A DNA stretch of 64,000 nucleotides from NCBI RefSeq assembly GCF_030388325.1, contig NZ_CP103794.1, forward strand, positions 4,526,001 through 4,590,000, in the 5' to 3' direction. Of this stretch, positions 10,691 to 36,400 are shown piece after piece (the first letter of the stretch is position 1; every line of letters begins with the position of its first letter). The notes below the pieces were generated by a model. That model saw nothing but the letters and a program-made list of their open reading frames with translations, was not told the DNA's origin and made no database searches. Source of the stretch: Flavobacterium johnsoniae (GTDB lineage Bacteria; Bacteroidota; Bacteroidia; Flavobacteriales; Flavobacteriaceae). A program made the translations under genes and the position numbers.

Positions 10691-10740
10691 TTAATTATCT
10701 TTTACGAGGCAAAAAATGTTTGTTTTCTTTTACTAATTTA

Positions 10741-11865: not shown

Positions 11866-11960
11866 AATATTATTTAAGGCACAAAGGCATTATACTGCAA
11901 TGTTGCAAAATTGATAAAATGTTAATTTTAAAGTCTTTAATTAAGTTTATAGATTACGTC

Positions 11961-12914: not shown

Positions 12915-12936
12915 TGTTTTTTTTTATTATTTACAA

Positions 12937-16763: not shown

Positions 16764-18950
16764 TTATTGTGTAACCAAAAATTGAGGATATGAATCTGAT
16801 GATGAATTAATTATTACTGTTGGAACACCTGATTTTACATTAACTAGCAATTTGCTTAATGTTGGATTCGATAAAAATGTGCTATTCACATATACAGCAG
16901 ATTCTAATCCGTATCCTTTATTTGCAGGAATATTAGTTACCACATTTCCTGTAATTGTTGAATTTACAATATGATTATTTAAGGTGTTATATACAACCGG
17001 AGAAAACATTGGAGAATTGTCTAAAAATTGGCATCCCTCAATATTGGTACTAATTGAATTAAATGTTGAACCCGTAATTCTATTATTATATATTTTAGAA
17101 TTATAAATACAGAAAACATTACTTGTTATAATATTTGTACCTGTAAAATTTGTAAAATCACAATTTGCTGCTAAAGGAGCATTTTGCGCATTTAAAGCAA
17201 GCGCTATTTTACCGCCATCAAACTTGCAGTCTACCCATGCATCTAAATTATCTGCTCTTGTTGCTAGCATAGAAACCGATGTACCGCAATTTATAAATTG
17301 ATTTTTATAGAACATTGTTTTGTCAACAAAGCTAGAAGTATCAATATCGTTGGCATAAGGAGTACGAGGATTTTGAAAGAATCCAATATTACAATTCACA
17401 AATCCTAGATTATCAAGGAAGTTATTGTCAAATCCTTTAATTTCCTTTAATTGTATACCATAATTTTGATCTCTAAAAACTACAAATTTCATGCTTTCAT
17501 AAGACATATGCTGAGATCCGTAATCTTGCGACGCATATACTCCAACACTCCCGCCTTGAAGCGTCAAGTAACTTAAAATAAAGTTAGCATCTTGTCCGCC
17601 TGTAAGAGAGATTAAAGGAAAATCATCTGTTAAGCCCACGATAACTGTTTTACCTGTACCTTGACCTACAATACCATGATTAGAATCTACAGGAAGTTTT
17701 AAAGTAGAACCGATATAAAAGATTCCTTCAGGCAAGTCAGCCACTCCTTTAGTATTGATTAAATTTTGAAGATAACTTGTCTGATCAGGTTTACCTATCC
17801 TATTTGTTTTCCAATTCGCTCCCAGAGGATCTGGCAAAGTTTCCCATGATGGTCTAGCCCACGGAGTATATTTAGTTCCTAAAATAGAACTACTAAGATT
17901 TGCCAATATTGTAGAGTTAGATATTGCCGCTACCTGTTCAACACCATTATACTTTACTGTATTGCTTCCGTTTAGGTTTCCTTGCAAATCAAATCCTGTT
18001 ACAGTTCCTGATTTTCTCACATAAGTTCCTGCTCCATTAACTACAAACATATTGGCTCTCGTAGACAAAACATCTGTTGGAAAATTCATCGCCTTATCTA
18101 AAAAGAAAACATTCGCAGCATCAATATCAAAAGATGGTGTTTTAACGGCAGAATAACTATTAGCACCATTAAAAGCTGTTATTTTTACGTTTCCTACATT
18201 ATTAGCACTAATCATTGCTTTTGTTCCTTCTCCAGCAAGATTCCATCCTTCAGCATCTAAACCTACAAAAGTAAGCGAACGTAAACCATCAATATCAGTA
18301 GTATTTCCATGAGGAGTAAGGAAATTTGTATGCAAACTTACATTACCATAACTCGGTGTACTGCTATTTCCTTTCAGAACCAACATATTAGAACCACCTT
18401 GTGATTGGTGTTTGATAATTTTAGTATTCCTAATATAACCAGACTGACTGCAATCAATTCTAATAGGTCCGCTCATATTAATAAATGTATTGTTCTCCAG
18501 CATTACATTTGTACCTACTAAAGTTGCCCATTTAATTGATTTAAAAGTAATATTAGAAATTAATCCGCCAGATTGCAATGTAATTGTTTGATCTACAGGC
18601 GCAACAGATTCTAAAACTATGCCTGTACTACCTGCAGCAATTGTAACGGCAGAAATTCTGCTTTGTGTTGGATGCCCATATAATCTCTGATTACTTTTCA
18701 TGACAATATTAACACCAGAATAATCACCTTTTTCTAATCTTACAGCACCATATTTATCCAATGCTTGCTGAATAGTTGCTTTTTGCGTTAAAGGCAACAA
18801 ATAAGCACTAAAATAAGCTGTTTCTTCAACTTGATTGTTTACAACTGGTGTTTCAGGAGTTGTTTTAACCGGAGCCTCATCTATTGCATAATGATAATTC
18901 TGAGAAAAACCAACCGTTGAAAGAAGTAAAAAATAAATTAAATGTTTCAT
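16764..18950 (-). CDS. Secreted tandem right-handed beta-helix protein (pectate-lyase-like)
   Basis: 728 residues. A signal peptide MKHLIYFLLLSTVGFSQ is followed by a Pro/Thr linker. Two beta-helix units are apparent. The first starts near residue 60 (IQQALDKYGAVRLEKGDYSG, then SNQRLYGHPTQS). The second starts near residue 385 (YLQNLINTKGVADLPEGIFY, then NHGIVGQGTGKTVIV). Both have the layout of pectate-lyase-3-type folds, with many N-rich turns (NTFINMSG, NTKIIKHQSQGG). Such folds occur in polysaccharide lyases, tail spikes and passive surface proteins; no catalytic set can be assigned. No type IX C-terminal domain is seen. The start overlaps the preceding gene by ATGA, so the two are coupled. 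Confidence 0.75.
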   Translation of the reverse strand: MKHLIYFLLLSTVGFSQNYHYAIDEAPVKTTPETPVVNNQVEETAYFSAYLLPLTQKATIQQALDKYGAVRLEKGDYSGVNIVMKSNQRLYGHPTQSRISAVTIAAGSTGIVLESVAPVDQTITLQSGGLISNITFKSIKWATLVGTNVMLENNTFINMSGPIRIDCSQSGYIRNTKIIKHQSQGGSNMLVLKGNSSTPSYGNVSLHTNFLTPHGNTTDIDGLRSLTFVGLDAEGWNLAGEGTKAMISANNVGNVKITAFNGANSYSAVKTPSFDIDAANVFFLDKAMNFPTDVLSTRANMFVVNGAGTYVRKSGTVTGFDLQGNLNGSNTVKYNGVEQVAAISNSTILANLSSSILGTKYTPWARPSWETLPDPLGANWKTNRIGKPDQTSYLQNLINTKGVADLPEGIFYIGSTLKLPVDSNHGIVGQGTGKTVIVGLTDDFPLISLTGGQDANFILSYLTLQGGSVGVYASQDYGSQHMSYESMKFVVFRDQNYGIQLKEIKGFDNNFLDNLGFVNCNIGFFQNPRTPYANDIDTSSFVDKTMFYKNQFINCGTSVSMLATRADNLDAWVDCKFDGGKIALALNAQNAPLAANCDFTNFTGTNIITSNVFCIYNSKIYNNRITGSTFNSISTNIEGCQFLDNSPMFSPVVYNTLNNHIVNSTITGNVVTNIPANKGYGLESAVYVNSTFLSNPTLSKLLVNVKSGVPTVIINSSSDSYPQFLVTQ

Positions 18951-19675
18951 TGTCCTGATATAATATAGGAGTTTGTTCCCGTTTTTCTAAGAAATCCAAA
19001 TCTCACGTTTCCAGCTGTACTTGTAAATTTAGCGCTTCCTGATGCAGTGTAATTTAGTGTAACTCCAGAAGCTGCCTGTACCGTCAACACTGCACCATTG
19101 TGAGCTTCTAAGTTAATGGTTTCACCAACTGCCATGCTTCCAAAATCTGCTGTTAAAGTCAAAGTTGATGCTGTTGTACACTCTATTGTATTATTTACAT
19201 CACCAGCAGCAATATTTCTTGAAGAAGTAAATGCCACGATAGCAGATCTAAACGGAGTGCTTGAAGTTCCTCCCGCAGTTTTAGCATACAAAGCATACGG
19301 AACACTTAAAAGTTGTGTAACTCCAGTAATATTAAAATTACTTCCTCCTTTTACATCCACTTGTGTTTCTATATAATAAGGACCTTTATCCCAAGCTATT
19401 TTACTAAAATCACCTGTTACAATAGTTCCAGTTCCTATTTCTAAAGAAACCAAACCATTCGCGTTTGTAGTTGGAGAATGTGTTTCCTGATAAACAACGG
19501 TTCCCGTTGCGGTGCTTTGATGCACAATCACTTTTAGGCTTATCTTCGAATTAACAACCAAGCTATTATCTTGTGCACGAATGATTGCCTGATAACTCAT
19601 TTTTTCAGGTGATTGTGCAAATACCTTAAGCGATACAGTTATAAATAATAATATGAGGGTATGTGCCAGTTTCAT
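18947..19675 (-). CDS. Secreted tail-fibre-like protein of unknown function
   Basis: 242 residues. The signal peptide MKLAHTLILLFITVSLKVFAQ is followed by MSYQAIIRAQDNSLVVNSKI and VPYALYAKTAGGT. This is a common Bacteroidota surface-protein module that usually precedes fibre-like or collagen-like repeats. The C-terminal 100 residues (FTSSRNIAAGDVNNTIEC to the end) are Thr/Ala/Gly-rich, beta-strand-like, and resemble a small trimeric fibre or phage-tail head domain. No enzymatic motif is seen. It lies 13 bp downstream of the T9SS-sorted gene and overlaps the beta-helix gene by 4 bp, so the three products probably act together at or outside the cell surface. Confidence 0.65.
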   Translation of the reverse strand: MKLAHTLILLFITVSLKVFAQSPEKMSYQAIIRAQDNSLVVNSKISLKVIVHQSTATGTVVYQETHSPTTNANGLVSLEIGTGTIVTGDFSKIAWDKGPYYIETQVDVKGGSNFNITGVTQLLSVPYALYAKTAGGTSSTPFRSAIVAFTSSRNIAAGDVNNTIECTTASTLTLTADFGSMAVGETINLEAHNGAVLTVQAASGVTLNYTASGSAKFTSTAGNVRFGFLRKTGTNSYIISGQ

Positions 19676-19688
19676 TAGATCTTCCGTT

Positions 19689-20210
19689 TTAATTTTTAAT
19701 TATTTTAAATGATTTCAAAATCTTATTATCCACATATACTACAAGTATATATATAGATGGGCTAAGATTATTTAAACTGACTTGGGTATCAGCTTGATTG
19801 ATTGTATTTTGTTTTAAAAGCCTTGCTTGGATATCGTAAAGTCTGTACGATCGCTGTCCACCTTCCAATTCTATTCCATTCATACTTATATTAACAAAGT
19901 CTGCGGTCGGATTTGGGTAAACAAACATTTCAGCTTTAGCAGGTTCTTCTACATCTGGGGTGTCTAATGTTTCGTCTTTAACTTGCTGTTGAATTCCTTG
20001 AGCTACATTGTAAACGGCATCCACTCCCATATAAGTGTAAAATACTTGCCCGATTGAATAAGCTACTGTTCCAGAAGTTCCCGTTGCATTGTTTCCAGAC
20101 GTAATTATAGTTTCCATTAAATTATCATTACTTTGACTAATTCCTACAAAAGGAACGAAAAACATCATTATAATGATTAGGTTTATATGTCTCAAGCGCG
20201 GATACTTCAC
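19689..20210 (-). CDS. Small secreted protein with type IX secretion sorting domain
   Basis: 173 residues. A hydrophobic N-terminal segment (INLIIIMMFFVPFVGISQ) is a signal peptide. Residues 28-85 form a small domain, including ETIITSGNNATGTSGTVAYS and QVFYTYMG, that often precedes sorting domains in Flavobacteriia. From about residue 95 comes a type A T9SS C-terminal domain: MFVYPNPTADFVNISM, YRLYDIQARLLK, LSPSIYILVVYVDNKILKSF. It should be exported to the periplasm by Sec and across the outer membrane by type IX secretion. It is the first gene of the three-gene operon, with a TATTTTTG -7 box 31 bp upstream. Its function is unknown. Confidence 0.82.
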   Translation of the reverse strand: MKYPRLRHINLIIIMMFFVPFVGISQSNDNLMETIITSGNNATGTSGTVAYSIGQVFYTYMGVDAVYNVAQGIQQQVKDETLDTPDVEEPAKAEMFVYPNPTADFVNISMNGIELEGGQRSYRLYDIQARLLKQNTINQADTQVSLNNLSPSIYILVVYVDNKILKSFKIIKN

Positions 20211-21128: not shown

Positions 21129-24100
21129 ATGAAAAGATCTAACAATGACAATTCAGACAAAGAGATAAATGGAGCAAAGATGGTGTATCCAAAAAATGCC
21201 CTCCATGAACTTTTTGCTCTGCAAGCGGAAAAATCACCAAGTGATATAGCATTAGAATTTGGTGATGAAAAGATTACATATGCATCATTAGCAAATAAGA
21301 CTAATCAGATAGCGAATTATTTTTTAGCGCAAGGATTAAGTCCTGGACAATTTGTTGCAGTATCGATGGACAGAAGCCCCAATTTAATTGCTTCACTTTT
21401 GGCTATTTTGCAATGCGGAGCGGCTTATTTACCATTGGATCCTAAATTTCCAACAGAAAGACTAGAATTTATGCTTGAAGATTCTGAAGCCGCATTTTTG
21501 CTTACTACAGAATCTCTTTCTCATTCTTTACCAAAAAGTTCAAAAACTATATTAATTGAGGATATATTATCTTCATTAGAACAATATCCTTCTACACCAC
21601 TATCAATTACGGTTGCACCAGAAAAAGTTGCTTATATAATGTATACTTCTGGTTCTACCGGAAAACCAAAAGGTGTAACTGTAACGCACAAAAATTTAGT
21701 AAACTTTCTTTTTAGCATGGCAATTGAGCCAGGTATTGAACCAGCAGATAAACTGTTATCGATTACAACCATCTCATTTGATATTGCAGGATTAGAATTA
21801 TTTTTACCATTAATTAAAGGTGCGTCTGTAGTTTTTGCTGATTACGAAACTACACGCGACGGTCAGCTTTTATTCAATCTTTTACAGAAAAAAGAAATCA
21901 CAATATTACAGGCTACACCAACTACATGGCAATTGCTTTTAGATTTTGGCTGGAATACGCCTCTTCCTATAAAAGCTCTTTGCGGCGGAGAAGCTATGCC
22001 TTTAAATCTTGCACGTTCTTTAACTGCAAGATGTAATTCTCTTTGGAATATGTATGGCCCGACTGAAACCACGATTTGGTCTGCCGTAAAACAAATTAAA
22101 GCCGAAGACGAATTAATTACAATTGGATTTCCTATTGCAAACACGCAGATTTATTTATTAGATGAAAATCGTAAAGTTGTTGAAGATGGAGAAATCGGAG
22201 AAATTGTAATTGGCGGAGACGGAGTTGCAGAAGGTTATTGGAAACGTGACGAACTTACTGCTGAAAAATTCATCCAAAATCCGTTTTCAGATAAAAAAGA
22301 TTCTATTCTTTACCGCACTGGTGATTTAGGAAAATTACTTCCGAATGGCGAATTGCAATGTTTAGGCCGTATCGATCATCAAGTAAAACTTAGAGGACAC
22401 CGAATTGAATTGGGCGAAATCGAAGCAACTTTAAATACAATTTCTGGCATTAAACAATCTGCCGTAATTGTAAGCAGACATTTTGGAAATGAAGATAAAC
22501 TAGTAGCTTATCTGAAAACCAGCGGAGAATCTGGAGATGAAAAACAGATTCAAGAAGCGCTTTCTAAAGTTTTACCAGATATTTTAATTCCATCAAAATA
22601 TATTTGGGTTGAAGAATTTCCAATAACACCAAACGGAAAAATCGATAAAAAGAATCTTCCTCTTCCAGAAAATACCAGATCAGATTCTGCTGTTCTTTAT
22701 AAAAAACCAACTACTAAATTAGAAAAAGAGATTGCAAAAATCTGGAGCGAAGAATTAAAAATAACAGAAATAGGCATTGACGATGATTTCTTTGATATTG
22801 GAGGAAGTTCTATTCTTGCTCAAAAAGTAACAACATCTATGAAACAGCTTTTATCTGTAGATGTTCCTGTTTCAAAAATCTATATTCATCCAACAATAAA
22901 AGAACTTGCTTCTATTTTAGAAGAACAAAATGGCACAGAAGAATCATTTGAATTTAAAGCACCAAATCATTATGGAGGCTCTGCAGATATTGCCGTAATT
23001 GGTATGGCAGGAAGATTTCCTGGTTCTGATACGATAGAAGAATTGTGGGAAAATCTTAGAGATGGTAAAGAAACTATTTCATTATTTACAAAAGAAGAAC
23101 TAGACAGCAGTTTGCCAGAAAGTCTTCGAAATGATCCGCTTTATATTGGTGCAAGAGGAGTTTTGCCTTCTGCAAAAACATTCGACCCAAGTTTCTTCGG
23201 ATTAAATCCGCAGCTTGCCGCAGCAATGGATCCGCAAATCAGAGTATTTTTAGAAATTTCATTTGAAGCACTAGAACAAGCTGGACATCTTCCTAAACAT
23301 TATAAAGGAAGCATTGGCGTTTATTCTGGAAGCGAAATCAATACCTATTACGAAAACAATATTTTTTCGAACAAAGAACTAAAAAGTTCGATCGGAGAAT
23401 TACAAATTTATACTGTCAACGGAAAAGACTTTATTGCACCGCGTACTTCTTACCATTTAAATTTAAAAGGACCTTCTGTAAGTGTTCACTCTGCTTGTTC
23501 TACTTCTTTATTGGCTGTTGCCGAAGCTGTAAAAGCAATCAGAACCGGAATGTGCGATGTAGCTCTTGCAGGCGGATCGAGCGTAACTTGTCCTATAAAT
23601 AGCGGACATCTTTATGACGAAGGTTTTATAAAAAGTCCTGATGGTTCTACTCGTTCTTTTGAAGCTTCTGGAAAAGGAACCGTTTTTAGCGATGGCGCTG
23701 GAGTTGTTTTGCTTAAAAGATTAGAAGAAGCAGAAAAAGATGGCGATATCATTTATGGTGTAATTAAAGGTGTTGGTGTAAATAATGATGGCGGAGACAA
23801 AGGAAGTTTTATGGCTCCAAGTCCAAAAGGTCAGGCTGGCGCTATAATTAATGCATTTAATGATGCGCAAATTTCGCCTTCTACAATTTCTTACATGGAA
23901 GCGCACGGTACTGCAACGCCAATTGGAGATCCTATAGAAATTGAAGGTCTTAAAATTGCTTACGGAAAACAAGAAAAAAACAACTATTGTGCTTTAGGAT
24001 CTATAAAAAGCAATATGGGGCACACGACGGCTGCTGCTGGTGTCGCTGGATTAATAAAAGTATTATTAGCCATGCGTCATAAACAAATACCGCCAATGGT

Positions 24101-26432
24101 GAATTTTGAAAAACCAAATCCTAACATTGATTTTGATAATAGTCCTTTTTATATCAATAATAAATTAATAGAATGGAAATCTGATGGAATCAGAAGAGCT
24201 GGAGTTAGTTCTTTTGGAATTGGAAGCACAAATGTTCATGTTATTGTTGAAGAATATGACAAAGAACCTATACCTTCTTCAACTGGAAGACCAATGGATA
24301 TTTTAATGTGGTCTGCAAAAAGTCAAAATAGTTTGTTAGGCTATGAAAATACATTAGGTCATTTTATTGATAAATCTAAAGAAACACCTTTAGCAGATAT
24401 TGCTTATTCTTTAAACATTACAAGAGACGATTTTAATCATAGAAGTTTTCTACTTGCCGATTCTACAACAGATGCGGCTGAAAAATTAATTTCATTAAAA
24501 GCCAAAAATACTAAATCTTCAATATTAAAAAGTGTGCCTAGCGAATTAGGATTTCTTTTCCCTGGACAAGGATCACAATACTTGCAAATGGGCAAAACGC
24601 TTTACGATAACGAAAAAGTTTATCGCGAAGCCGTAGACAAATGTGCCGAGATGTTAATGGCAGAATTAGGATTAGATATTCGTGAAGTTCTTTACCCGAA
24701 AGACCATTTTACTGATGCAGAAGAACTTCTTAGAAATACTCGTTTAACGCAACCTTCTTTGTTTGTTACCGAATATGCTTTAGCGCAATTATGGATGAGC
24801 TGGGGAATAAAACCAACTTTCCTTTGTGGTCATAGTATAGGAGAGTTTGCTGCAGCACATTTAGCCGGAATTTTAAATCTAAAAGATGCATTGCATATTG
24901 TCGCTGTAAGAGGAAGATTAATCAGCCAATTGCCAGGCGGATCGATGCTGATTGTTCGTGTGCCAGTAGAAACATTGAATGAATTAAAACCAGATACACT
25001 TTCTATTGCGGCTATAAACTCAAAACAGTTTTGTGTTGTATCTGGAAAAAAAGAAGATATCGCAAGCTTTAATCAAGAACTTGAAGCTAAAGAAATTCCA
25101 AATAGACTTCTTAACACAAGTCATGCCTTCCACTCTTTTATGATGGAACCGATTTTGGATGACTTTAGAAATGAGTTAGAAAAAATAAAATTGAATATTC
25201 CTAGATTACCAATTATTTCGACTGCAACAGGAACTTGGCTTACCGATACAGAAGCTACAGATCCGACTTATTGGGTAAATCAGTTAAAAAACACGGTTCA
25301 TTTTGCGGATGCAATGGACACAGCATTCGAACTAGAAGATTTTGTTTTATTAGAAGTTGGTCCTGGACAAACTTTGATTACTTTGGCGCGTCAGCAGGCT
25401 GCTGGTAAAATTATACCTGCATTTCCGAGTATCAATTTCCCTAAAGATGAAAATGATAATGAATACACTACATTATTAACTGCGTTGGGCGAATTATGGT
25501 TACGAGGCATAAATCCTGACTGGAAATCATTTTACGGTCAGCAACAAAGACAAAAAATAGAATTGCCAAATTATATTTTTGACCGTAAACCTTGTTGGAT
25601 CGAACCTTTAGGCATTGTAGAAACAATAGTTCCTCAAAAAGAAGTTGTTTCTGAAACACCAATTATTTCAATAGAAACAGAAAATAAAACAGCCGATTCT
25701 CAACATTCTAGAAAAGACGAAATTCTTTCTAAAATTTCAGATATTATAAAAAATGCATCTGGAATAGTGTATGAATCGGAGTCTTCTTCAAATACTTTCT
25801 TAGAGTTAGGTTTAGATTCTTTATCGCTTACGCAATTATCAGGTAAACTGAAAAAAGAGTTTGATTTGCCAATTACTTTTAGACAATTAAACGAAACTTA
25901 CTCAACTCCTTCGCTTCTAGCAGATTATATAGAACTTAATCTTCCTCAAGAAGTTACAGCTGTAGTAAAAGAAGTCGAAAAAGTTGTAGAAAATGTTGCG
26001 ACTCCAAAAGTTTCACAAAACGGTACACAATTATCATCAAATCAAAGTCAGATTTCTTTAGAACAAATTGTTCAGCAGATTCAGCTTTTGAGTCAGAAAG
26101 TAGATCAGCTACAGAATTTTCAAAGTACTTCTGTAAACGGAAATTCTTCATTTGTAAATCTAAAAGCAGAAAATTTTGATGTTTCTAAATTCAACAATGA
26201 ACTCAAACCCGAAACCAATGGTTCTGCAAAAACTAACGGAAATTCTGCGAATATTTCGGCATTTCATGATCAAGAGCGATTTGAAAACAACAATTATGAA
26301 AAGAAATATACGATAAAATCAAATGAACCGCCAGTGCAAGGAAGCAAACTCGGAAGAGATGAAAGCGGAAATCCTGCATGGTTTATAGAAGATCCAAATG
26401 AGAACGGAAGTTTCGTTAAGATTAAGCTATAA
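21129..26432 (+). CDS. Hybrid NRPS-PKS, A-PCP-KS-AT-ACP
   Basis: 1767 residues from ATG 21129; an in-frame ATG at 21057 would add 24 atypical residues. The adenylation domain shows YIMYTSGSTGKPKGV (167), NMYGPTETTIW (305), RGHRIELGEIE (420) and NGKIDKK (501). Specificity positions read by eye as D-I-L-Q-C-G-M-I-W-K, a glycine-type code. The peptidyl carrier is FFDIGGSSI (558). The ketosynthase has VIGMAGRFPGS (620), active Cys in HSACSTS (790), HGTATPIGDP (925) and KSNMGHT (960). The acyltransferase has FPGQGSQ (1144), GHSIGEF (1234) and HAFH (1331), indicating malonyl-CoA. The acyl carrier is LGLDSLSL (1560). A Gln/Asn-rich tail ends in GNPAWFIEDP. There is no condensation, ketoreductase or dehydratase domain, so it should load glycine and extend it with malonate to a beta-keto thioester. 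Confidence 0.93.
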   Translation: MKRSNNDNSDKEINGAKMVYPKNALHELFALQAEKSPSDIALEFGDEKITYASLANKTNQIANYFLAQGLSPGQFVAVSMDRSPNLIASLLAILQCGAAYLPLDPKFPTERLEFMLEDSEAAFLLTTESLSHSLPKSSKTILIEDILSSLEQYPSTPLSITVAPEKVAYIMYTSGSTGKPKGVTVTHKNLVNFLFSMAIEPGIEPADKLLSITTISFDIAGLELFLPLIKGASVVFADYETTRDGQLLFNLLQKKEITILQATPTTWQLLLDFGWNTPLPIKALCGGEAMPLNLARSLTARCNSLWNMYGPTETTIWSAVKQIKAEDELITIGFPIANTQIYLLDENRKVVEDGEIGEIVIGGDGVAEGYWKRDELTAEKFIQNPFSDKKDSILYRTGDLGKLLPNGELQCLGRIDHQVKLRGHRIELGEIEATLNTISGIKQSAVIVSRHFGNEDKLVAYLKTSGESGDEKQIQEALSKVLPDILIPSKYIWVEEFPITPNGKIDKKNLPLPENTRSDSAVLYKKPTTKLEKEIAKIWSEELKITEIGIDDDFFDIGGSSILAQKVTTSMKQLLSVDVPVSKIYIHPTIKELASILEEQNGTEESFEFKAPNHYGGSADIAVIGMAGRFPGSDTIEELWENLRDGKETISLFTKEELDSSLPESLRNDPLYIGARGVLPSAKTFDPSFFGLNPQLAAAMDPQIRVFLEISFEALEQAGHLPKHYKGSIGVYSGSEINTYYENNIFSNKELKSSIGELQIYTVNGKDFIAPRTSYHLNLKGPSVSVHSACSTSLLAVAEAVKAIRTGMCDVALAGGSSVTCPINSGHLYDEGFIKSPDGSTRSFEASGKGTVFSDGAGVVLLKRLEEAEKDGDIIYGVIKGVGVNNDGGDKGSFMAPSPKGQAGAIINAFNDAQISPSTISYMEAHGTATPIGDPIEIEGLKIAYGKQEKNNYCALGSIKSNMGHTTAAAGVAGLIKVLLAMRHKQIPPMVNFEKPNPNIDFDNSPFYINNKLIEWKSDGIRRAGVSSFGIGSTNVHVIVEEYDKEPIPSSTGRPMDILMWSAKSQNSLLGYENTLGHFIDKSKETPLADIAYSLNITRDDFNHRSFLLADSTTDAAEKLISLKAKNTKSSILKSVPSELGFLFPGQGSQYLQMGKTLYDNEKVYREAVDKCAEMLMAELGLDIREVLYPKDHFTDAEELLRNTRLTQPSLFVTEYALAQLWMSWGIKPTFLCGHSIGEFAAAHLAGILNLKDALHIVAVRGRLISQLPGGSMLIVRVPVETLNELKPDTLSIAAINSKQFCVVSGKKEDIASFNQELEAKEIPNRLLNTSHAFHSFMMEPILDDFRNELEKIKLNIPRLPIISTATGTWLTDTEATDPTYWVNQLKNTVHFADAMDTAFELEDFVLLEVGPGQTLITLARQQAAGKIIPAFPSINFPKDENDNEYTTLLTALGELWLRGINPDWKSFYGQQQRQKIELPNYIFDRKPCWIEPLGIVETIVPQKEVVSETPIISIETENKTADSQHSRKDEILSKISDIIKNASGIVYESESSSNTFLELGLDSLSLTQLSGKLKKEFDLPITFRQLNETYSTPSLLADYIELNLPQEVTAVVKEVEKVVENVATPKVSQNGTQLSSNQSQISLEQIVQQIQLLSQKVDQLQNFQSTSVNGNSSFVNLKAENFDVSKFNNELKPETNGSAKTNGNSANISAFHDQERFENNNYEKKYTIKSNEPPVQGSKLGRDESGNPAWFIEDPNENGSFVKIKL

Positions 26433-26507
26433 GAATCGAAAAAAAAAGATAGTTAATATTTTAAATTACCAATTAAAAATTGCAATTACATTTAAAATAG
26501 GTGCAAA

Positions 26508-29500
26508 ATGAAAAATCAACCTCAAATACAAATAGAAATGGAAGCTGAAACTAAAATTCAATTTAATCCATTTTCCCCTGAAATCGAAAGAGTAATTCAT
26601 ACCACAAATTCGCAGCAGGAAATATGGACTGATTGCATTTTTGGCGGGATTGATGCTAACAAGGCTTACAACTTATCTGTATCGATAAATTTTAAAGGAA
26701 ATTTAATCATTGAGATTTTTGAGAAAGCTGTAAAAACTTTAATCGATCGTCATGAAGCTCTTAGATCTTCTTTTAGTCCAGACGGTCGCTTTATGTGTAT
26801 TTATAAAGATTACAACATCAAAGTTTCTCAAAATGATCTTTCTGAAGCGCCTCCAATTGAAAAAGAATCTTCTATAGACAAACATATTAGAGAACAAGTT
26901 AGCGAGCTTTTTGATCTAGTAAGCGGTCCATTATTTAGAGTTAATTTGCTTAAAATTGATGAATTTGAAACAATTGCGACATTAACAATTCATCATATTG
27001 TAGGCGATGGACTAAGTATCGATATCATTCTAGAAGAACTCGGCGTACTGTATTCTGCTTATCTTGAAAACAAAGAATACGAACTGCATGCTCCAGAAAA
27101 ATTTAGTGAATTTGCCGAAAAGATAAATTCTTTTATGGAAAGCAGCGATTACAAACCATTAGAAGATTTTTGGATTGATATTTATAAAGAATCTGTTCCA
27201 ACTATCGAATTACCAATCGACTTTGTAAGACCTTCATTAAGAACATACAACAGCAGCCGTCTTGATTTTGCTTTTGATGATGCTATTATTAGTGAATTAA
27301 AAAATATCGGAATAAAAACGAGCAGCAGTTTAGTTACGACTTTACTTGCCGCTTTTGAGATTTTTCTATGCAAACTTACCGGACAAAATGATCTAGTAGT
27401 AGGTTTTCCTTCTTCTGGAAATACATTATACGGTATGAAACAGCTTATTGGAGATTGTGTAAATCTTCTTCCTCTTCGCAGTAAAATCAATTCTGACATT
27501 AGCTTTCTTGACTATTTAAAACAAAGAAATACCCAATTATTTGATGCTTACGAACATCAGCAAGTTACTTTTGGGCATCTTTTAAAGAGTTTCGCTATTG
27601 CGAGAGATCCGTCTAGAATTCCTCTGGTTCCGGTTATTCTTACTGTAGATTTAAGCAGAACTATCGAAGATGATTTTTCATACAAAGGTCTTACTCATAG
27701 CTTTAAGCCAAATCCTAGAGAGTACGGAACGTTTGAGATTCAGCTGCATATTTTTAGAGCTAAAAGCGGTCCTTCATTTCAATGGACTTACAACACGACT
27801 TTATTCAAACCAGAAACTATAACAAAAATGATGGCTTCTTTTGAAGAAATCATTAAGGAAGTCATTGTAAATCCTACAAGTCCATTGTCTGATATTGTTG
27901 GCGGTAATTATTTAGCAGATTATGCTGAATTAAATAATACCGAAATGGCTTATCCTGATATTACTCTAACAGAGTTACTTAGAAAACAAGCAGAAATTAC
28001 ACCAAATAAAACAGCCGTAGAATTTCATGAATTAAAAACTACTTATAAAGAATTACACGAAAAGGTAAATCAAATGGCGCATTATCTGAAAGATCAAGGC
28101 GTTCAATCTGGCGATTTTATTGCCGTATCTTTTCCTAGAAGTCCAGAATTACTATATGCATTACTTGCTATTATGCAATGTGGTGCAGCCTATTTGCCAT
28201 TAGATCCGGATTATCCAAAAGAGCGTTTAGAATTTATGCTTAAAGATTCTAATGCAAGAGTTTTATTGACTACTAAAACCCTGTTTGCATCTTTGCCATC
28301 ATGGCCGCAAACACTTTTTATAGAAGATGCTACAGAAACATTAAATAAGTATTCTGCATTACCGCTTCCGTTTATGGTTAATTCAGAAAATAACGCTTAT
28401 ATTCTTTATACATCGGGATCAACAGGAAATCCGAAAGGTGTTCCAATTACGCATAAAAATTTAGTAAACTTTCTTTGCAGCATGGCATTGGAGCCAGGTA
28501 TTAGCGAAAATGACCGATTACTTTCTATCACAACAATTTCTTTTGATATTGCTGGATTAGAACTGTATTTACCATTGATGAAAGGCGCGACATTGATACT
28601 GGCTGATCAAGAAACGGCAAGAGACGGAAGACTTTTACTTGATTTGGTAAAGAAAGAAAATATTAATTTCCTGCAAGCAACTCCAACAACTTGGTCAATG
28701 CTTTTAGATTCTGGATGGTCTGAAAAACTGCCACTTAAAGCATTATGCGGCGGTGAAGCAATGCCAGTAGATCTTGCCAACGAACTTCTATCTAAATGCG
28801 ATACGCTTTGGAATGTTTATGGCCCTACAGAAACTACGATATGGTCGTCTGTAAAACAAATAAAAGCCGAAGATAAATTGATTACCATTGGAAAACCGAT
28901 TGGAAATACTCAAATTTATTTAATTGATACCCAAGGTCAACTTGTTGCGCCTGGAAATATCGGAGAGATTGTTATTGGTGGCGATGGTGTTGCAAAAGGT
29001 TATTGGAACAGACCAGAACTTTCATCAGAAAAATTCATTTCGAATAGATTTTCTTCAAACAAAGAAGATATAATGTATCGTACGGGTGATTTAGGAAAAT
29101 TACTTCCAAACAATGAAATAGAATGTTTAGGACGTCTAGATCAGCAAGTTAAAATTAGAGGTCACCGTATAGAACCTGGAGAAGTTGAACAAGCATTAAT
29201 GTTATTAGACGGCATAAAATCTGCCGTAGTTCTAGCCGATGAAAATTTCTTAATCGCTCACATTGTTCCAGAAACAAGCATAGAAGAAGCTGAAAGTCTA
29301 GTTGCTTCTTGGCGAGAAACTTTAAGCACTCGATTACCAGCGCAATTAATGCCTCACGATTTTAATATAATCGAAAAAATACCAACAACTTTAAACGGTA
29401 AAATTGATCGTAAGGAATTAGCAAAATACAAAGCCAATAAAAAAATCTCTTATACGGCACCTCGCACTGAAGAAGAAAATATTGTAGCGACGATCTGGAA

Positions 29501-30518
29501 AGAAAGCTTAAATCTAGAGAACATAGATATTTTTAGTGATTTCTTCGAAATGGGCGGACATTCGATAAAAGGTGTTAAAGTGATGATTGAAATTGAAAAA
29601 CATACTGGAATCCGAATTCCGTTGTCTTCTCTATTCAAATATTCAACGGTTGAGAAATTTGCTAAACTATTAAACACAGGAACAGAAATTTATTCTGATT
29701 GTTTAGTTCCGATAAAACCTGCTGGAAACAAAGTGCCTCTTTTCATAATTCATGGAGCAGGATTGAATGTTTTAAACTTTATGAATTTGAGTAAACATTT
29801 TGATGAAGATCAGCCTATTTACGGAATTCAAGGTACTAAACCAAAAGGTTTTGACGGATGGTATGAATCAATTGAAGCTATGGCTGCGCATTACATTGAT
29901 GCTATTATCAAAGTAAATCCGAAAGGTCCTTATGCTTTGGCTGGTTTTTCTTTTGGAGGTATTGTTGCTTTTGAAATGACACGCCAATTGAAAGAACAAG
30001 GAAAAGAAGTAAGCTTAACTGGCCTACTCGATTCTTATGTTGATTCTTCTTATTATTATGGAAGTTACAGAAGAAAACAACTTGTAAGATACTTCGATTT
30101 AACTCATAAAAGATTAGACTTTTTAAAGGAAATGTTATTAAGCTGGAAAGCTTTCAAAATGCGTATTAATGGAAAAAGAGAATATATACTGCAAAGACAT
30201 TTTGGAAAAAAAGTCGAAATGACCGAGCAAGAAGAATTAGCATTGCAGCAATTTATTGAAGCCGATCGTATGGTGAAAAAAATTGTTGATCTCTATCATC
30301 TTAAACCTCAAAATTTTAGAGTGGATTTATTCCGATCAAAAGATGATGAAAATTACAAATTAGATCCGACGCATTTAGGATGGAAAAAAGCGGCTTTAGG
30401 TGGTGTTACAATTCATAGCATTTCAGGAAATCACCTCAACATTGTTGCTCCGCCAAATGACAAAGTTTTAGCGAGATTACTTCAAGATATACTAGATGAA
30501 AACCATGAAAACCTCTAA
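26508..30518 (+). CDS. NRPS with terminal thioesterase, C-A-PCP-TE
   Basis: 1336 residues. The condensation domain begins with TTNSQQEIWTDCIFGG, the style of hybrid C domains that accept polyketide chains, and has the catalytic HHIVGDG at 161. The adenylation domain has YILYTSGSTGNPKGV (630), NVYGPTETTIW (770), RGHRIEPGEVE (882) and NGKIDRKE (962). Its code reads D-I-L-Q-C-G-V-I-W-K, again glycine-like. The carrier serine is in FFEMGGHSIKG (1016). The thioesterase has FIIHGAGLNVLNF, nucleophile motif GFSFGGIVAFE (1146), DSYVDSS and a terminal SGNHLNIV histidine (about 1306). It is the terminating module, adding one residue and releasing the product. It lies 75 bp after the first synthase and overlaps the PPTase gene by 23 bp. 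Confidence 0.93.
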   Translation: MKNQPQIQIEMEAETKIQFNPFSPEIERVIHTTNSQQEIWTDCIFGGIDANKAYNLSVSINFKGNLIIEIFEKAVKTLIDRHEALRSSFSPDGRFMCIYKDYNIKVSQNDLSEAPPIEKESSIDKHIREQVSELFDLVSGPLFRVNLLKIDEFETIATLTIHHIVGDGLSIDIILEELGVLYSAYLENKEYELHAPEKFSEFAEKINSFMESSDYKPLEDFWIDIYKESVPTIELPIDFVRPSLRTYNSSRLDFAFDDAIISELKNIGIKTSSSLVTTLLAAFEIFLCKLTGQNDLVVGFPSSGNTLYGMKQLIGDCVNLLPLRSKINSDISFLDYLKQRNTQLFDAYEHQQVTFGHLLKSFAIARDPSRIPLVPVILTVDLSRTIEDDFSYKGLTHSFKPNPREYGTFEIQLHIFRAKSGPSFQWTYNTTLFKPETITKMMASFEEIIKEVIVNPTSPLSDIVGGNYLADYAELNNTEMAYPDITLTELLRKQAEITPNKTAVEFHELKTTYKELHEKVNQMAHYLKDQGVQSGDFIAVSFPRSPELLYALLAIMQCGAAYLPLDPDYPKERLEFMLKDSNARVLLTTKTLFASLPSWPQTLFIEDATETLNKYSALPLPFMVNSENNAYILYTSGSTGNPKGVPITHKNLVNFLCSMALEPGISENDRLLSITTISFDIAGLELYLPLMKGATLILADQETARDGRLLLDLVKKENINFLQATPTTWSMLLDSGWSEKLPLKALCGGEAMPVDLANELLSKCDTLWNVYGPTETTIWSSVKQIKAEDKLITIGKPIGNTQIYLIDTQGQLVAPGNIGEIVIGGDGVAKGYWNRPELSSEKFISNRFSSNKEDIMYRTGDLGKLLPNNEIECLGRLDQQVKIRGHRIEPGEVEQALMLLDGIKSAVVLADENFLIAHIVPETSIEEAESLVASWRETLSTRLPAQLMPHDFNIIEKIPTTLNGKIDRKELAKYKANKKISYTAPRTEEENIVATIWKESLNLENIDIFSDFFEMGGHSIKGVKVMIEIEKHTGIRIPLSSLFKYSTVEKFAKLLNTGTEIYSDCLVPIKPAGNKVPLFIIHGAGLNVLNFMNLSKHFDEDQPIYGIQGTKPKGFDGWYESIEAMAAHYIDAIIKVNPKGPYALAGFSFGGIVAFEMTRQLKEQGKEVSLTGLLDSYVDSSYYYGSYRRKQLVRYFDLTHKRLDFLKEMLLSWKAFKMRINGKREYILQRHFGKKVEMTEQEELALQQFIEADRMVKKIVDLYHLKPQNFRVDLFRSKDDENYKLDPTHLGWKKAALGGVTIHSISGNHLNIVAPPNDKVLARLLQDILDENHENL

Positions 30519-31287
30519 GCTCTCTATTTCGTTTTTAGAGATAAAAGGTGTTGATTTTAGTCCAGAAAAAGGGTATTCTTTAGATAGTGATGATATTGTT
30601 ATTTACACTATTTATTTGCCCAATTTCATGGATATGAAATCAGATTTATCTCAATTTCTAAATTCTATTGAACTCAAAAGAGTCAAAAGATATTATAAAG
30701 AAATTGACAAAGATAGATTTATCATCTACCGATCTATTTTAAAGCTCATTTTAGCAGCTTATACAAAACTAAATATCAAAAACATTTATCTTGATTATGA
30801 CTTTAATAAAAAACCGTATTTAGCTTCGCATCCTTGGCTGCATTTTAATATTTCTCACTCAGAAGACTTTGCAACGATTGCGGTTTCTAGAAAAAAAGTA
30901 GGTTTAGATATTGAATATATGAGCAAAGATTTCAACTTTACAAGTATGCTGCCAGATGTTTTTAACGATGATGAAACAAAAATAATTGAGAATGCCAATG
31001 ATAAAAAAAATACTTTTTACACTTTATGGACAAGAAAAGAAGCCTTTGTTAAAGCTTTAGGAAAAGGTATCGACGAAGATTTTAAATACATTCCTTGTCT
31101 TGATGGCGAACATAATCTTGATTTTTCATTAATAAAAAACTCTCAAAACTGGCAAGTAAGAAGTTTTGATCTAGCAGATGATTATTTGGGCGCGATAGCT
31201 TTTGAAGGTTTGCCAACAACTTCTGTAAACATAAATTTGTATAATGTATCGCAAAATATATTTTCATTGTTAGAAATGGTCAAATAG
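30496..31287 (+). CDS. Sfp-type 4'-phosphopantetheinyl transferase
   Basis: 263 residues from the first ATG; an ATG at 30505 is an equally possible start. Sfp-family signatures are in order: LHFNISHSEDFATIAVS (near 115), VGLDIEYM (near 135), and WTRKEAFVKALGKGI (near 177), which supply the CoA- and magnesium-binding residues. The enzyme transfers phosphopantetheine from CoA to the carrier-domain serines of the two synthases, making them active. The start lies inside the end of the thioesterase-bearing gene, so translation is coupled. It is the last gene before a terminator, which fixes the operon as three genes. No dedicated exporter or resistance gene follows. Confidence 0.92.
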   Translation: MKTMKTSKLSISFLEIKGVDFSPEKGYSLDSDDIVIYTIYLPNFMDMKSDLSQFLNSIELKRVKRYYKEIDKDRFIIYRSILKLILAAYTKLNIKNIYLDYDFNKKPYLASHPWLHFNISHSEDFATIAVSRKKVGLDIEYMSKDFNFTSMLPDVFNDDETKIIENANDKKNTFYTLWTRKEAFVKALGKGIDEDFKYIPCLDGEHNLDFSLIKNSQNWQVRSFDLADDYLGAIAFEGLPTTSVNINLYNVSQNIFSLLEMVK

Positions 31288-31582: not shown

Positions 31583-32128
31583 ATGGAGAATACCTCAACA
31601 GATATTTTATTATGGCAACAGATAAAAAAAGGTGATATTACCGCCTTTGAAAAGCTGTATGATATCTATGCTGATGTTTTACTTACTTTTGCTTTACAAT
31701 ATACTAACGAAGAATCTCTTGCCAAAGATGCGATTCATGATGTTTTCTTAGACATTTACAAATACAGAAGCGGTCTCGCCGAAAATGTAAATGTAAAATC
31801 GTATTTGTTTAAAATTACCCAGAGAAATGTTTTCAAAAAGAATAAAGCATCTCAAAAAATATTTTCTTTAAGTTCTGATTATGATTCGGTTATACTAAAA
31901 GAACTTTCTTTTGAAGACACCTTAATCGAAGAAGAAAATAATACTGCCCTAAATTCCAAACTGGCTTTTGCAATGCAGGAACTTACCGAAAAGCAACGCA
32001 AAGCATTGTTCTACAGATTTAATGAAGACAAACCTTATGAAGAAATTGCATCTATTTTAGACATTTCTATCGAGTCTTGTAGAACACTGATATACAGATG
32101 TTTGAAAGAACTCAGAAAAAAACTTTAA
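31583..32128 (+). CDS. RNA polymerase ECF sigma factor
   Basis: 181 residues. Region 2 is recognisable from DILLWQQIKKGDITAFEKLY through AKDAIHDVFLDIYKYR (residues 45-62). Region 4 is recognisable in MQELTEKQRKALFYRFNEDK, then PYEEIASILDISIESCRTLI, then YRCLKELRK (residues 130-180), with its helix-turn-helix. Such sigma factors in Bacteroidota are held by a FecR-like anti-sigma protein and released when a SusC receptor with an STN domain binds its ligand. All those partners are encoded immediately downstream in order. The expected target is the promoter of the susC-like gene. The ATG at 31583 gives the normal family length. Confidence 0.93.
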   Translation: MENTSTDILLWQQIKKGDITAFEKLYDIYADVLLTFALQYTNEESLAKDAIHDVFLDIYKYRSGLAENVNVKSYLFKITQRNVFKKNKASQKIFSLSSDYDSVILKELSFEDTLIEEENNTALNSKLAFAMQELTEKQRKALFYRFNEDKPYEEIASILDISIESCRTLIYRCLKELRKKL

Positions 32129-32203
32129 AAAAAGGTTATTTTTTATGTCTATGTTTTACAAGAGTTGTTCTCTTAGTATTATATACCCCATAAAAACATC
32201 GCC

Positions 32204-33265
32204 TTGCAAATTAATTTTAACAAAATATCGAACGATGAAAAAGATTCTTTAAAGAATCAAATTCGTCACGGACTGATCGAACTTCAGCAAAAAGAATCTA
32301 GACGCAGGAAAAAGAAAAGATTTCTTGCTTACGGAGCTGCTGCGAGTGTCGTTTTATTAGTCGCTTTATTTATGAATCAGAATTCATCAGAAAGCGCCAA
32401 ACCTCTAACAGCATTAGAGCAATTTGCCCAAAATTCTAAATCGACAGAATCAAACCTAGATTTAGAGAATATTTCTCTTGTCTTGCAAGATCAGAAAACT
32501 ATTTCGGTGGAAGATAGTACTGTAATTAGCTACGGAAAAAACGGCGAAAAAGTTACTGTTGGTCAACAAGCAATAAACACAAATTCTAATAGCGCTTCGG
32601 CTTTTAATACGGTTAGAGTTCCTTACGGTAAAAGAACACAAATCGTTTTGACTGACGGAACAACTGTTTGGCTAAACTCGGGTTCTTCGCTAATTTATCC
32701 GACTCAGTTTGATGGATCTATTCGTGAAGTATACCTAACTGGTGAAGCCGCTTTTGATGTGGCTCATAACAAAGCCAAACCATTCTTTGTAAAAACAAAA
32801 GAATGCAATGTAAGAGTGCTTGGAACGGTTTTCAATGTGAGTTCTTATCCAGAAGATGAAACGGTGCAAACGGCTTTATTGCAAGGAAAAGTTAGAATTA
32901 CTTACAACAAAAAAGGATTCTTAAACAATCAGGAGCTTCAGGAAGATTTGACACCAGGAATGATTGCTACAATCAATAAAGATAAAAAACAGCTAAAAGT
33001 AGAACATAAAGATGTTGCTTCGATTCTGTCTTGGCGAGAAGGTTATTTTACTTTCAAAAGTCAGTCTTTGAATACCATTTTGAGCAAGCTTTCAAAATAT
33101 TATAAAATAGAATTCATTAAGGGATCAAACCTAAATCTGGATGCTAATTATTCGGGTTCTTTCGCATTAAATGAAAATCTTAATTCGCTGGCAAATACAT
33201 TATCCAGCATTACAAATAACAGCTGTACTGTTAACGCAAACCAAAGAACTATTACAATTAAATAA
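32204..33265 (+). CDS. FecR-family anti-sigma factor
   Basis: 353 residues from a TTG at 32204. A TAG lies 28 bp upstream in frame and the next Met is inside the membrane span, so TTG is the only reasonable start. Residues 1-41 are a short, basic cytoplasmic segment (ELQQKESRRRKKKRF). Residues 42-60 are one membrane span (YGAAASVVLLVALF). The periplasmic FecR domain holds VPYGKRTQIVLTDGTTVWLN, LTGEAAFDVAHNKAKPFFV and VLGTVFNVSSYPED. The last 70 residues (SLNTILSKLSKYYKIEF) are a DUF4974-like tail that should contact the STN domain of the receptor. The cytoplasmic part is shorter than the roughly 80-residue anti-sigma region common in this family. Confidence 0.88.
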   Translation: MQINFNKISNDEKDSLKNQIRHGLIELQQKESRRRKKKRFLAYGAAASVVLLVALFMNQNSSESAKPLTALEQFAQNSKSTESNLDLENISLVLQDQKTISVEDSTVISYGKNGEKVTVGQQAINTNSNSASAFNTVRVPYGKRTQIVLTDGTTVWLNSGSSLIYPTQFDGSIREVYLTGEAAFDVAHNKAKPFFVKTKECNVRVLGTVFNVSSYPEDETVQTALLQGKVRITYNKKGFLNNQELQEDLTPGMIATINKDKKQLKVEHKDVASILSWREGYFTFKSQSLNTILSKLSKYYKIEFIKGSNLNLDANYSGSFALNENLNSLANTLSSITNNSCTVNANQRTITIK

Positions 33266-33358
33266 ATAAAAAAATCAATTCAAAAACCGTAAATGCCTAT
33301 GATATAAAACCAAAAATAAACATATCAACCTTATTTGTAAAAACTAACCAAAAAAAAA

Positions 33359-33385
33359 CCAAAAGATGTTGGAACCATCTTTTGG
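33359..33385. promoter_or_regulatory. Hairpin in the leader of the susC-like gene
   Basis: CCAAAAGATG and CATCTTTTGG form a perfect 10-bp stem around TTGGAAC. On the plus strand no U-run follows, so it is not a plus-strand terminator. On the minus strand it would be followed by eight T, but no minus-strand gene needs ending here. Because it lies 57 bp before the receptor gene, it may be a leader-RNA structure or part of the ECF promoter region. Confidence 0.45.
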
Positions 33386-33441
33386 CATTGTAGAACGGTA
33401 GTCAACGCTAATTGACTAACTCTTAAATTCAAAACAAAATT

Positions 33442-36400
33442 ATGAATAAAAAACATAATTCAGAAAAGTATTTTTCTGGACGATACCACTATTACCTATA
33501 TCTGCTGCTTATGAGATCTGTTACTGCATTTATCTGGATAAGTATGTGTAGTTTATATGCGAACCCTTCTTTAGGACAAAATAAAATACATGTTCGTTTC
33601 AAGAACACTCCGCTAACTGAAGTTTTTTCTACTTTAGAAAAACAGACTAATTATGTCTTTTTCTATAATGATGACGTTTTAAAGTCTGCCAATACCATTA
33701 CTTTGGATAAAGACGCAACTATAGAAGAAATCTTAAACAACGCCTTAAAAAGCAATAATTTAACTTTTGATATTATTGATAAACAAGTTGTTGTAAAAAG
33801 AAATAAAAAGAAAGCAGAACAATTAGAATATGAACTAACAGGAAAAGTTACCGATAAAAAAGGCGCTCCGCTTATTGGTGTAAACGTAATCTTAAAAGGA
33901 AAACAAAACTGGGATATTACCAGAAAAGAAGGAGAATATAGAATGAGAGTTTCTCCTTATGATACTATTGTTTTCAGTTCTTTAGGTTTTAAAACCGTTA
34001 CAGTTGCTGTAAACAATAAAAGAGTTATTGACGCAACATTAGTACCAGATGTTATGGAACTTCATTCTGTAGAAATCCCAGTATCAAATGGTTATACTGA
34101 AATTCCGAAAGAAAGAGTTACTGGAGCAATTGGCGTAATGACTGCAAAAGAATTGGCAGAAGTTCCAACAGTTGACATTCAGTCAAGATTAGAAGGAAAA
34201 ATGGCAGGTGTAAATGTCGATCCAAGAACTGGTTCTATCAGTGTTCGAGGAACTAATAATTTTAGCGGAACGGGATCGCCGTTGATAGTTATTGATGGTT
34301 TTCCGCAATCTAGAGAAGATTTCGCCTTCTCTAAAAGAGGTGTTCCGGGATCTTCTATTTTAAGTTTTCTTAACCCAGACGATGTAGAAAGCATTACCGT
34401 TTTAAAAGATGCTGCTGCAAGTTCAATTTGGGGATCAATGGCTGCAAATGGAGTTATTGTCATTACAACCAAAAAAGGTAAAAAAGGCGAGCCAACAATC
34501 AATTTTAACACCACTACAAGCGTTGGAGAAAAAATCGATTTGGGAAAACTTCGCGTTATGAATACTGCTCAATATATTGATTACGAAAAAGACCTTGTAA
34601 ATGGCGGATTCGTTGTTGACAATATTTCAAACTGGCAGGCGCTTAATCCGAGTGCTGCACAAGAAATAATGTTTAGACAAAAAAGAGGTGAAATCACTGT
34701 TGCTCAAAGAGATCAATTGTTGGCACAACTTGGACAAAATGATAATTTAGGACAGATAAACAGATATTTGTTAAGAAATTCACTTACAACTCAATATGAT
34801 TTATCCATAAATGGAGGAAATGAAAAAAGCACGTATTATTTGTCTTTAGGATATAATAAGGATCAAGCAGCAATGCAAGGAAATGATTCTAAATCTTATA
34901 ACATTACATTAAACAACTCTTTTCAGCTTAAAAGCTTCTTAAAGTTAAACACAGGAATTAATTACGTTCCAACAACGTATCAAACTAATACAGTTGCAAA
35001 CGAAGCTTTGTCTAATGTATCGGCTACGGCTTTACGTCCTTACGATATGATTGCCGATGAAAACGGAAACGGAATTGATCGTTATTATCTTTTTAGACCA
35101 GAAGTTTCTAAAGGATTTGAAGCAAAAGGATATCTGCCTTGGTCTTACAATTTTTTAGATGAACTAAATTATTCTAATGTAATAACAAAAGGTGCAAATA
35201 TCAGATTAAATGCAAGTTTAACAGCAACTGTTACAAATTGGTTAAACTTTGAAGCATCTGGAATGTATACTTCTATTACAAACAAAACCAAATCGTTAAG
35301 CGAGTTAGATAGTTATTATACTCGAAATATGATTAACCAGGCAACATCTGTTAATACAGCTGGAAAACTAGTTTATGGTATACCGTTGGGATCTTATTTA
35401 TATAATACGAACACTAACAACGATAATCAAAGTATGCGTTTTCAAATGAATATCAATAAGAATTTTAACGAAAATAATAGTTTACATTTCTTAGCGGGTA
35501 CAGAAGTTAGAGAAGAACGCAGAGAAGGTTCTAGCCAAAGATATTACGGATATAATATTGACACTAATTCTGGACAATCTGTAAACCCAACAGTTTATTA
35601 CAATACGGTTTACGGATGGCAAAGTATGATTGGAACTTCTGATAATAGTATCAGTATATCAAGAAGTCGTTATTTATCTTACTACGGATTGGGTTCTTAT
35701 GATTTTATGAACCGTTACCATGTTTCAGGAAGTATTCGTTTTGATGATGCAAACATAATTGGAGCTTCTAGAAAAAATAGAGCATTGCCACTTTGGTCTG
35801 CAGGAGGTAAATGGGATATTAATAAAGAATTTTTCTTAAGAGATGTAAACTGGCTGAGCAATTTAGCTTTTAGAATTACTTATGGTAAAGGCGGAAGTTC
35901 TCCAAGCGGCGGATTTGGAAGCCAAAGTCCTGTAATTAGTATCGGAAGTGTAGATTTTAATACGCAATTGCCAACAGCTTCTATCTCGATACCAGAAAAT
36001 CCTGAAATTAAATGGGAAACAACAACAACGTTAAATTACGGTTTAGATTACGGTTTCTTCAATAATCGTTTAAGAGGAAGTGTTGATTTCTATTATAAAA
36101 AAACTGAAGATATTTTAGCAAATCTTCCTTTCAATCCAACTTACGGATGGTCTTATGTAAATTATAATACAGCAACTCTAAAAGGACACGGCGTAGATGC
36201 ATCTCTTTCGGGAACTGTAATAAATGCGGCTTTTAAATGGAACAGTAGTATAAATTTCTCTTATAATACTAATGAAGTTACAGACTCTCGATATGTATTA
36301 AATAGCACCAATCAGTATTTTGGTTCATCACCAATGGTTGGAACAAGTATCGGAACAATCTATGCTTACAAATGGGCTGGTTTAGATGCAACCGGACAAT

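Follow-up and report, generated by a model that had tools for sequence, protein, structure and literature searches.

We analysed a 64,000-nucleotide stretch of the Flavobacterium johnsoniae genome (assembly GCF_030388325.1, contig NZ_CP103794.1, positions 4,526,001 to 4,590,000), referred to here as the window. Positions 21129-31287 of the window (+ strand) contain a polyketide synthase-nonribosomal peptide synthetase (PKS-NRPS) assembly line, made up of three open reading frames (ORFs) with domains assigned by Pfam: ORF1 with the domain order A-PCP-KS-AT-ACP, ORF2 with C-A-PCP-TE, and ORF3, a 4'-phosphopantetheinyl transferase (PPTase). Our data indicate that this line is a cut-down version of a PKS-NRPS that carries an aminotransferase domain (AMT), and that three surface-protein genes (u173, u242 and u728) travel with it, neither of which had been recognised in the first-pass annotation of the stretch. 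The features of the line, all on the + strand, are as follows.

21129-26432, +: ORF1, 1767 residues; A-PCP-KS-AT-ACP-tail; loading and malonyl-extension module
21216-22640, +: A1 loading domain (Pfam); code DILQLGMIWK
22728-22913, +: PCP1 (Pfam)
22986-24110, +: KS (Pfam)
24552-25397, +: AT, malonyl type (Pfam); motifs GHSIGE and HAFH
25701-25928, +: ACP with Ser1564; second PP-binding stretch, bounds placed by eye
26310-26429, +: retained post-AMT tail, PPVxGxKLGRDExGNPAWFIEDP; the lost AMT would sit directly upstream
26508-30518, +: ORF2, 1336 residues; C-A-PCP-TE
26604-27896, +: C domain (Pfam); motif HHIVGDG
27978-29402, +: A2 (Pfam); code DILQLGVIWK
29484-29672, +: PCP2 (Pfam)
29736-30458, +: TE (Pfam); Ser-Asp-His, with Asp and His assigned by motif; GFSFGG
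30496-31287, +: ORF3, 4'-phosphopantetheinyl transferase (Pfam ACPS); named NCBIfam models match below cut-off only

Architecture, specificity codes and conservation

ORF1 starts with an ATG at 21129, and a TTG at 21057 is also in frame upstream. Its domains span residues 30-504 (A), 534-595 (PCP), 620-994 (KS) and 1142-1423 (AT), followed by the ACP; those of ORF2 span residues 33-463 (C), 491-965 (A), 993-1055 (PCP) and 1077-1317 (TE). The three genes look like one operon since ORF2 and ORF3 overlap and only 75 bases separate ORF1 from ORF2. Pfam detects no KR, DH, ER or AMT domain in the assembly-line proteins. The first-pass annotation had proposed this domain order, a missing ketoreductase, a malonyl-type AT, a PPTase of the line's own and an operon free of tailoring, export or resistance genes, and our analysis bears out all of these. 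A single condensation domain was found in the genome (5.32 Mb, single contig). Orthologues of ORF2 occur in 18 of 398 genomes of the genus at 76% identity or more and in 14 others at 50-65% (13 near full length, one, G044, in contig-cut pieces), which excludes a chance architecture. The line recurs in at least 18 of the 398 sampled Flavobacterium genomes, a spread that the first-pass annotation had not noted either.

We next considered the A-domain codes. The ten code positions were read by alignment, their placement on the A-domain motifs of the window following what we take to be the GrsA positions, and give DILQLGMIWK for A1 and DILQLGVIWK for A2. An earlier reading by eye had also called both codes glycine-like; the glycine assignment holds, while the Cys it placed at position 299 is Leu in both domains. 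DILQLGMIWK is found exactly in four glycine-activating, MOX-associated domains according to PMC12283262, and DILQLGVI occurs in the nocamycin NRPS, for which PMC5466765 predicts glycine in agreement with the structure. Across the 28 loci of the AMT-less clade (the window, L002-L024, L028 and L128-L130), A1 reads DILQLGM[IV]WK in all but L019, and A2 is of the DILQLG[VLM] type in all but L021 (27 of 28 each). Judged by alignment, both A domains carry glycine specificity codes.

The line is also maintained rather than decaying, because its catalytic residues are kept and substitution is constrained. The KS Cys/His/His, the AT Ser and HAFH, the PCP Ser and the ACP Ser are intact in alignment columns of 29/29 AMT-less rows (L123 included, L115 left out; the alignment used for residues and substitution rates additionally left out L036, L043, L044 and L050). 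The ratio of nonsynonymous to synonymous rates (dN/dS) is 0.02-0.17 in A, KS, AT and ACP between the window and eight orthologues (dS 0.4-1.6), a pattern of purifying selection. ORF2 is 72-95% identical in 23 of 24 named Flavobacterium-clade loci (61% in L021), and its HHxxxDG, GGxS and GxSxGG motifs are present in all 65 C-A-T-TE proteins, two of which are duplicates.

Descent from an aminotransferase-bearing family

We found 75 related loci, 50 of which were analysed for architecture alongside the window while 25 more distant ones were set aside. The window shares homologous ORF1 and ORF2 in the same order, together with a PPTase gene, with a Bacteroidota family whose ORF1 ends in a class III aminotransferase. 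AMT-bearing ORF1s occur in Maribacter, Robiginitalea, Croceivirga, Hymenobacter, Pedobacter, a Chitinophagaceae metagenome-assembled genome and others, and are approximately 2180-2255 residues long (1994 in L042; fused with ORF2 in L036). This architecture is already known, as a table row in PMC3870968 lists an A-CP-KS-AT-CP-PLP protein of Pedobacter heparinus (C6XWU5) with the predicted core 'Nrp-Mal-Gly-Pk'. The domain order of that row is the same as in the window through the ACP, but the window's ORF1 has no aminotransferase and carries a glycine A core, whereas the AMT lines often have a proline-like A1. We found no product of an AMT-bearing Bacteroidota line in the literature. The best PDB match of the relatives' AMT (a piece from L025) is the AMT of MycA of mycosubtilin synthase (6kfm, E 8.6e-101), so the domain lost from the window line belongs to the same family. 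A passage in PMC3870968 describes the MycA domain as aminating an ACP-bound beta-ketothioester beside an NRPS module; with the AMT absent, the ketone should persist in the window line.

In an alignment of 20 ORF1 proteins, the window lacks a block of approximately 440 residues that corresponds to the AMT, yet its C-terminus still carries the tail found after the AMT in relatives (PPVxGxkLGxDExGNPAWF...). This tail is probably a docking element. The KS-AT tree holds 29 AMT-bearing ORF1 rows, most of them followed by C-A-T-TE and PPTase genes, and leaves out L126 and L127 (duplicates) as well as L047, L050, L058, L070 and L125 (distant or broken). Within it, a single clade (SH-aLRT 99), nested among AMT-bearing rows, holds 28 of the 30 AMT-less ones. 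The remaining two, L115 and L123, have kept the tail, and their KS-AT falls with those of AMT-bearing Flavobacterium; the A1 code of L115 is proline-like, while L123 resembles a mosaic with an A1 of the AMT-less type and, by eye, a C-terminus of that type too. The AMT is likewise missing, and the tail retained, in L150 and L153 from other genera, which sit at separate positions in a family-level tree from which 19 near-copies and outliers were left out. That tree needs five changes of AMT state, four of which are forced by well-supported branches; on this reconstruction, loss of the AMT with retention of the tail recurs.

We then asked whether a close AMT homologue is encoded elsewhere. None was found in the 18 genus genomes with the AMT-less line, where matches at E<=1e-40 reach only 35-37% identity, and the genomes of L150 and L153 hold AMT matches of just 34-36% elsewhere. 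None was found in the rest of the window genome either, in which the AMT query has four matches at 29-37%: HemL, an ornithine transaminase, an ArgD-like protein (below its cut-off) and one 397-residue protein. The AMT itself is present at 75-81% identity in 9 of 32 genus genomes with this NRPS family. Taken together, these comparisons place the window line as a derived AMT-less branch of an AMT-bearing Bacteroidota family, uncharacterised as far as we found. The branch type is not confined to Flavobacterium, since P0115 of Confluentibacter sediminis has an AMT-less ORF1 with a DILQLGMIWK starter (and, by eye, two tandem ACPs). In F. micromati L021 (4592-21328), AMT-less and AMT-bearing copies of ORF1 lie side by side.

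The starter domain has a separate history. In the AMT-bearing ORF1s the A1 code is DVQFMAQVVK in 13 of 25 domains and varies in the remainder; a second, family-level set has DVQF[MI]AQVVK in 4 of 13 AMT-bearing rows, three rows of the set repeating loci already counted in the first. We take DVQFMAQVVK to be proline-like on the basis of codes known to us, since it found no match in the open-access literature searched, and neither did DAMWLGIVCK, DIFVWCLIFK or DIFEFTLIWK. At 18 AMT-bearing loci outside Flavobacterium (L043 and L044 left out), A2 is of the DILQLG type in 12 and as the first of two in L042, and five are without it. In a tree of 94 of 141 A-domain rows (near-identical loci and rows labelled 'other' dropped), A1 of the window groups with A2-type domains and away from the proline-like A1, and an approximately unbiased (AU) test on 53 rows rejects the grouping of glycine-type with proline-like A1 (p-AU 2.4e-87; the group was named after the first tree). 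Over residues 81-440, ORF1 is 60-72% identical to A2 of the window (42% in one 40-residue block) and 11-55% identical to the proline-like A1. The two identities are about even over residues 441-480, and the order is reversed over residues 481-600, with 35-60% to the proline-like A1 against 22-40% to A2. The replacement thus seems limited to the A core, with the switch near the core/sub hinge. The glycine-type A1 domains have as their sister group the DAMWLGIVCK set, which includes the A1 of AMT-bearing lines; the DAMWLGIVCK A1 of L111 is 26-72% identical to the window over residues 81-440. The family presents a natural engineering experiment, with one assembly line available both with an in-line aminotransferase and without it; the kept tail and the switch near the hinge mark where such lines can be cut and regrafted.

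Several loci depart from this plan. In L019, L111, L112, L113 and L121, one ORF1 is followed by a tandem of C-A-T-TE genes, both with a thioesterase of their own; the A codes of the pair differ in four of the five loci (e.g., DIFVWCLIFK), and the paired genes are possibly alternative terminal modules. A-T-TE fragments in which the TE Ser is Cys occur in L111, L117, L123 and L124. A gene of approximately 300 residues lies between ORF1 and ORF2 in L031, L116, L118 and L121-L123, and is cupin_8/JmjC-like in L031 and L116 and transposase-like by eye in L123. Maribacter L025 has a methyltransferase gene upstream of ORF1.

Predicted product and mode of release

We favour the reading that the window encodes a Gly-malonyl-Gly PKS-NRPS line descended from an AMT-bearing ancestor, with a probability of roughly 0.6. 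From the domains, codes, AMT loss, A-core replacement and conservation, which are established at the level of sequence, we infer its substrates, colinearity, the docking role of the tail, the mode of release and the product chemistry. ORF3 would prime the carrier domains and A1 would load glycine onto PCP1, after which the KS would condense the glycine with malonyl supplied by the AT to give 4-amino-3-oxobutanoyl-ACP. At this step the AMT of the relatives would convert the beta-ketone to a beta-amine; in the window line, from which the AMT has been excised, the ketone would stay. The retained tail would dock ORF1 to ORF2, the C domain would join the chain to PCP2-bound glycine, and the TE would release it, most likely by hydrolysis, as 4-amino-3-oxobutanoyl-glycine (C6H10N2O4, 174.064). 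The first-pass annotation had arrived at the same chain, and this beta-keto chain is the likely one and the best inference given how weak the AMT matches in the genome are. Such a product, being both an alpha-aminoketone and a beta-ketoamide, could form a pyrazine by dimerisation or a Knorr-type pyrrole by self-condensation.

The same annotation had also suggested a Dieckmann-type release by the TE to a tetramic acid, for which we found no support. Of 17 TEs at AMT-carrying Flavobacterium loci, 16 share 54-79% identity with the TE of the window and one shares 42%; two of these TEs, which belong to short extra A-T-TE copies, have Cys in place of Ser. Identity to TEs of AMT loci outside Flavobacterium is 28-43%. 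The ancestor of this TE probably lacked Dieckmann cyclase activity because the beta-amino intermediates of AMT lines should lack the acidic methylene between two carbonyls. Hydrolysis is the simpler inherited activity, and our conservative guess; Dieckmann closure would be a gain. Such closure would yield a minimal 3-acyl tetramate, 3-glycyl-tetramic acid (C6H8N2O3, 156.053). Its substrate is of the right type, the predicted chain being a beta-ketoamide that bears an activated glycyl thioester, and an unreduced beta-keto module feeds C-A-PCP, as in TE-released tetramate PKS-NRPSs (Pfam). Reutericyclin and pyreudione are made by very short NRPS/PKS tetramate routes in which the first amino acid is acylated, whereas the amine of the first glycine would be free in the window line. 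In the nocamycin system (NcmB/NcmC), where a polyketide chain is joined to glycine as the last residue and the glycine A domain shares an eight-letter code with A2 of the window, a tetramate does form, though PMC5466765 proposes a separate Dieckmann cyclase, NcmC. The window line has its in-line TE alone, of a family common to AMT lines, and its operon has no further enzyme gene and hence no NcmC-like cyclase there (the rest of the genome was not searched). We therefore regard closure by the TE as unlikely.

An enzyme acting in trans could instead replace the lost domain, an aminotransferase giving 3,4-diaminobutanoyl-Gly or a ketoreductase the 3-hydroxy analogue. The AMT was ancestral, the genome encodes the 397-residue transaminase-like protein noted above, and housekeeping FabG-type reductases exist in nearly every bacterium; on the other side, the 24 named Flavobacterium-clade loci, five of which stop just past the PPTase gene, have no neighbour in common beyond the u-genes (not all neighbours are annotated), and we consider such replacement rather improbable. 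Least credible of all is release before ORF2, in which the amine of 4-amino-3-oxobutanoyl-ACP would attack its own thioester to give pyrrolidine-2,4-dione (C4H5NO2, 99.032), leaving ORF2 with little to do or with another chain. Formation of a five-membered ring is chemically favoured, but the identity of ORF2 across loci and its universally present motifs count against this route.

Some observations weigh against the Gly-malonyl-Gly reading. Substrate calls from codes can fail. Maribacter L030 and L035 and Croceivirga L033 combine a DMVQ[LI]GMIWK A1 with an AMT, and F. aquicola L019 lacks the AMT yet has the A1 code DPFAIGLVAK, which makes a glycine-like A1 and AMT loss separable; L115, L150 and L153, also without an AMT, carry other A1 codes. 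The core swap may be older than the loss of the AMT, or repeated, because an ORF2-type A core (DAMWLGIVCK) is also present in AMT-bearing lines. The beta-ketone could be altered by a trans-acting reductase or by an aminotransferase from a different family, and the 397-residue protein, 32% identical to the AMT, matched no model at 1e-100. The titles and abstract starts of the open-access literature searched contain no product report for this cluster. Overall, the earlier interpretation is partly supported.

Divergent surface-protein genes and surroundings

Three genes on the - strand diverge from ORF1.

19689-20210, -: u173, T9SS type A sorting domain; divergent from ORF1
18947-19675, -: u242, signal peptide by eye; sub-threshold match to a chimeric fibre N-terminal model (43 bits, cut-off 60)
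16764-18950, -: u728, signal peptide by eye; no Pfam or NCBIfam match

The predicted fold of u728 contains parallel beta-helices (pLDDT 90), and its weak Foldseek matches are GH55 glucanases, PL6 lyases and phage tailspikes (TM-score 0.14-0.26 by query length in the 15 best rows), which we take as suggesting a right-handed beta-helix only. The u173-u242-u728 genes flank the line in 24/24 named Flavobacterium-clade loci and are also present at the AMT-carrying loci L113, L116 and L118. Of the 398 genus genomes, 31 contain u728, and each of these is one of the 32 that have the NRPS family; the sole NRPS-family genome without it, G247, is a 64% complete assembly. In 30 of the 31, u728 shares a contig with an NRPS-family gene (G234 is split over contigs), and the co-occurrence is probably explained largely by physical linkage. 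Among 21 Flavobacteriaceae genomes of other genera that match ORF1, u728 occurs in one (G536, same contig) and is absent from 20. In G005, approximately 25 kb with polysaccharide genes separate u728 from an ORF2-PPTase pair, and the 39 kb examined there contain no ORF1; G282 also has the u-genes and ORF2-PPTase with no ORF1 within the stretch read. It is tempting, if doubtful, to suppose that AMT excision and the A-core swap turned a beta-amino-peptide line into a maker of the smallest 3-acyl tetramate (3-glycyl-pyrrolidine-2,4-dione) or of an aminoketone-derived pyrazine, acting with the co-inherited type IX secretion system (T9SS) surface proteins (16764-20210) in Flavobacterium.

A polysaccharide (capsule or exopolysaccharide) cluster at 1004-15462 adjoins u728 and contains a NusG-like regulator, the GDP-fucose pathway, an NDP-sugar dehydrogenase and glycosyltransferases; by eye, polysaccharide-type genes adjoin the u-genes in G005, G204, G269, G273, G282 and G326 as well. 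Downstream, 31583-37002 holds an extracytoplasmic function (ECF) sigma factor gene, FecR genes and a large ORF that resembles an outer-membrane receptor by eye. We rejected this locus (31583 onward) as part of the cluster, as its first genes occur in only 4 of the 20 loci, the window and named Flavobacterium-clade loci, that continue beyond the PPTase gene. A Flavo-1 RNA (Rfam RF01705, 53.4 bits) lies at 58099-58182 on the - strand.

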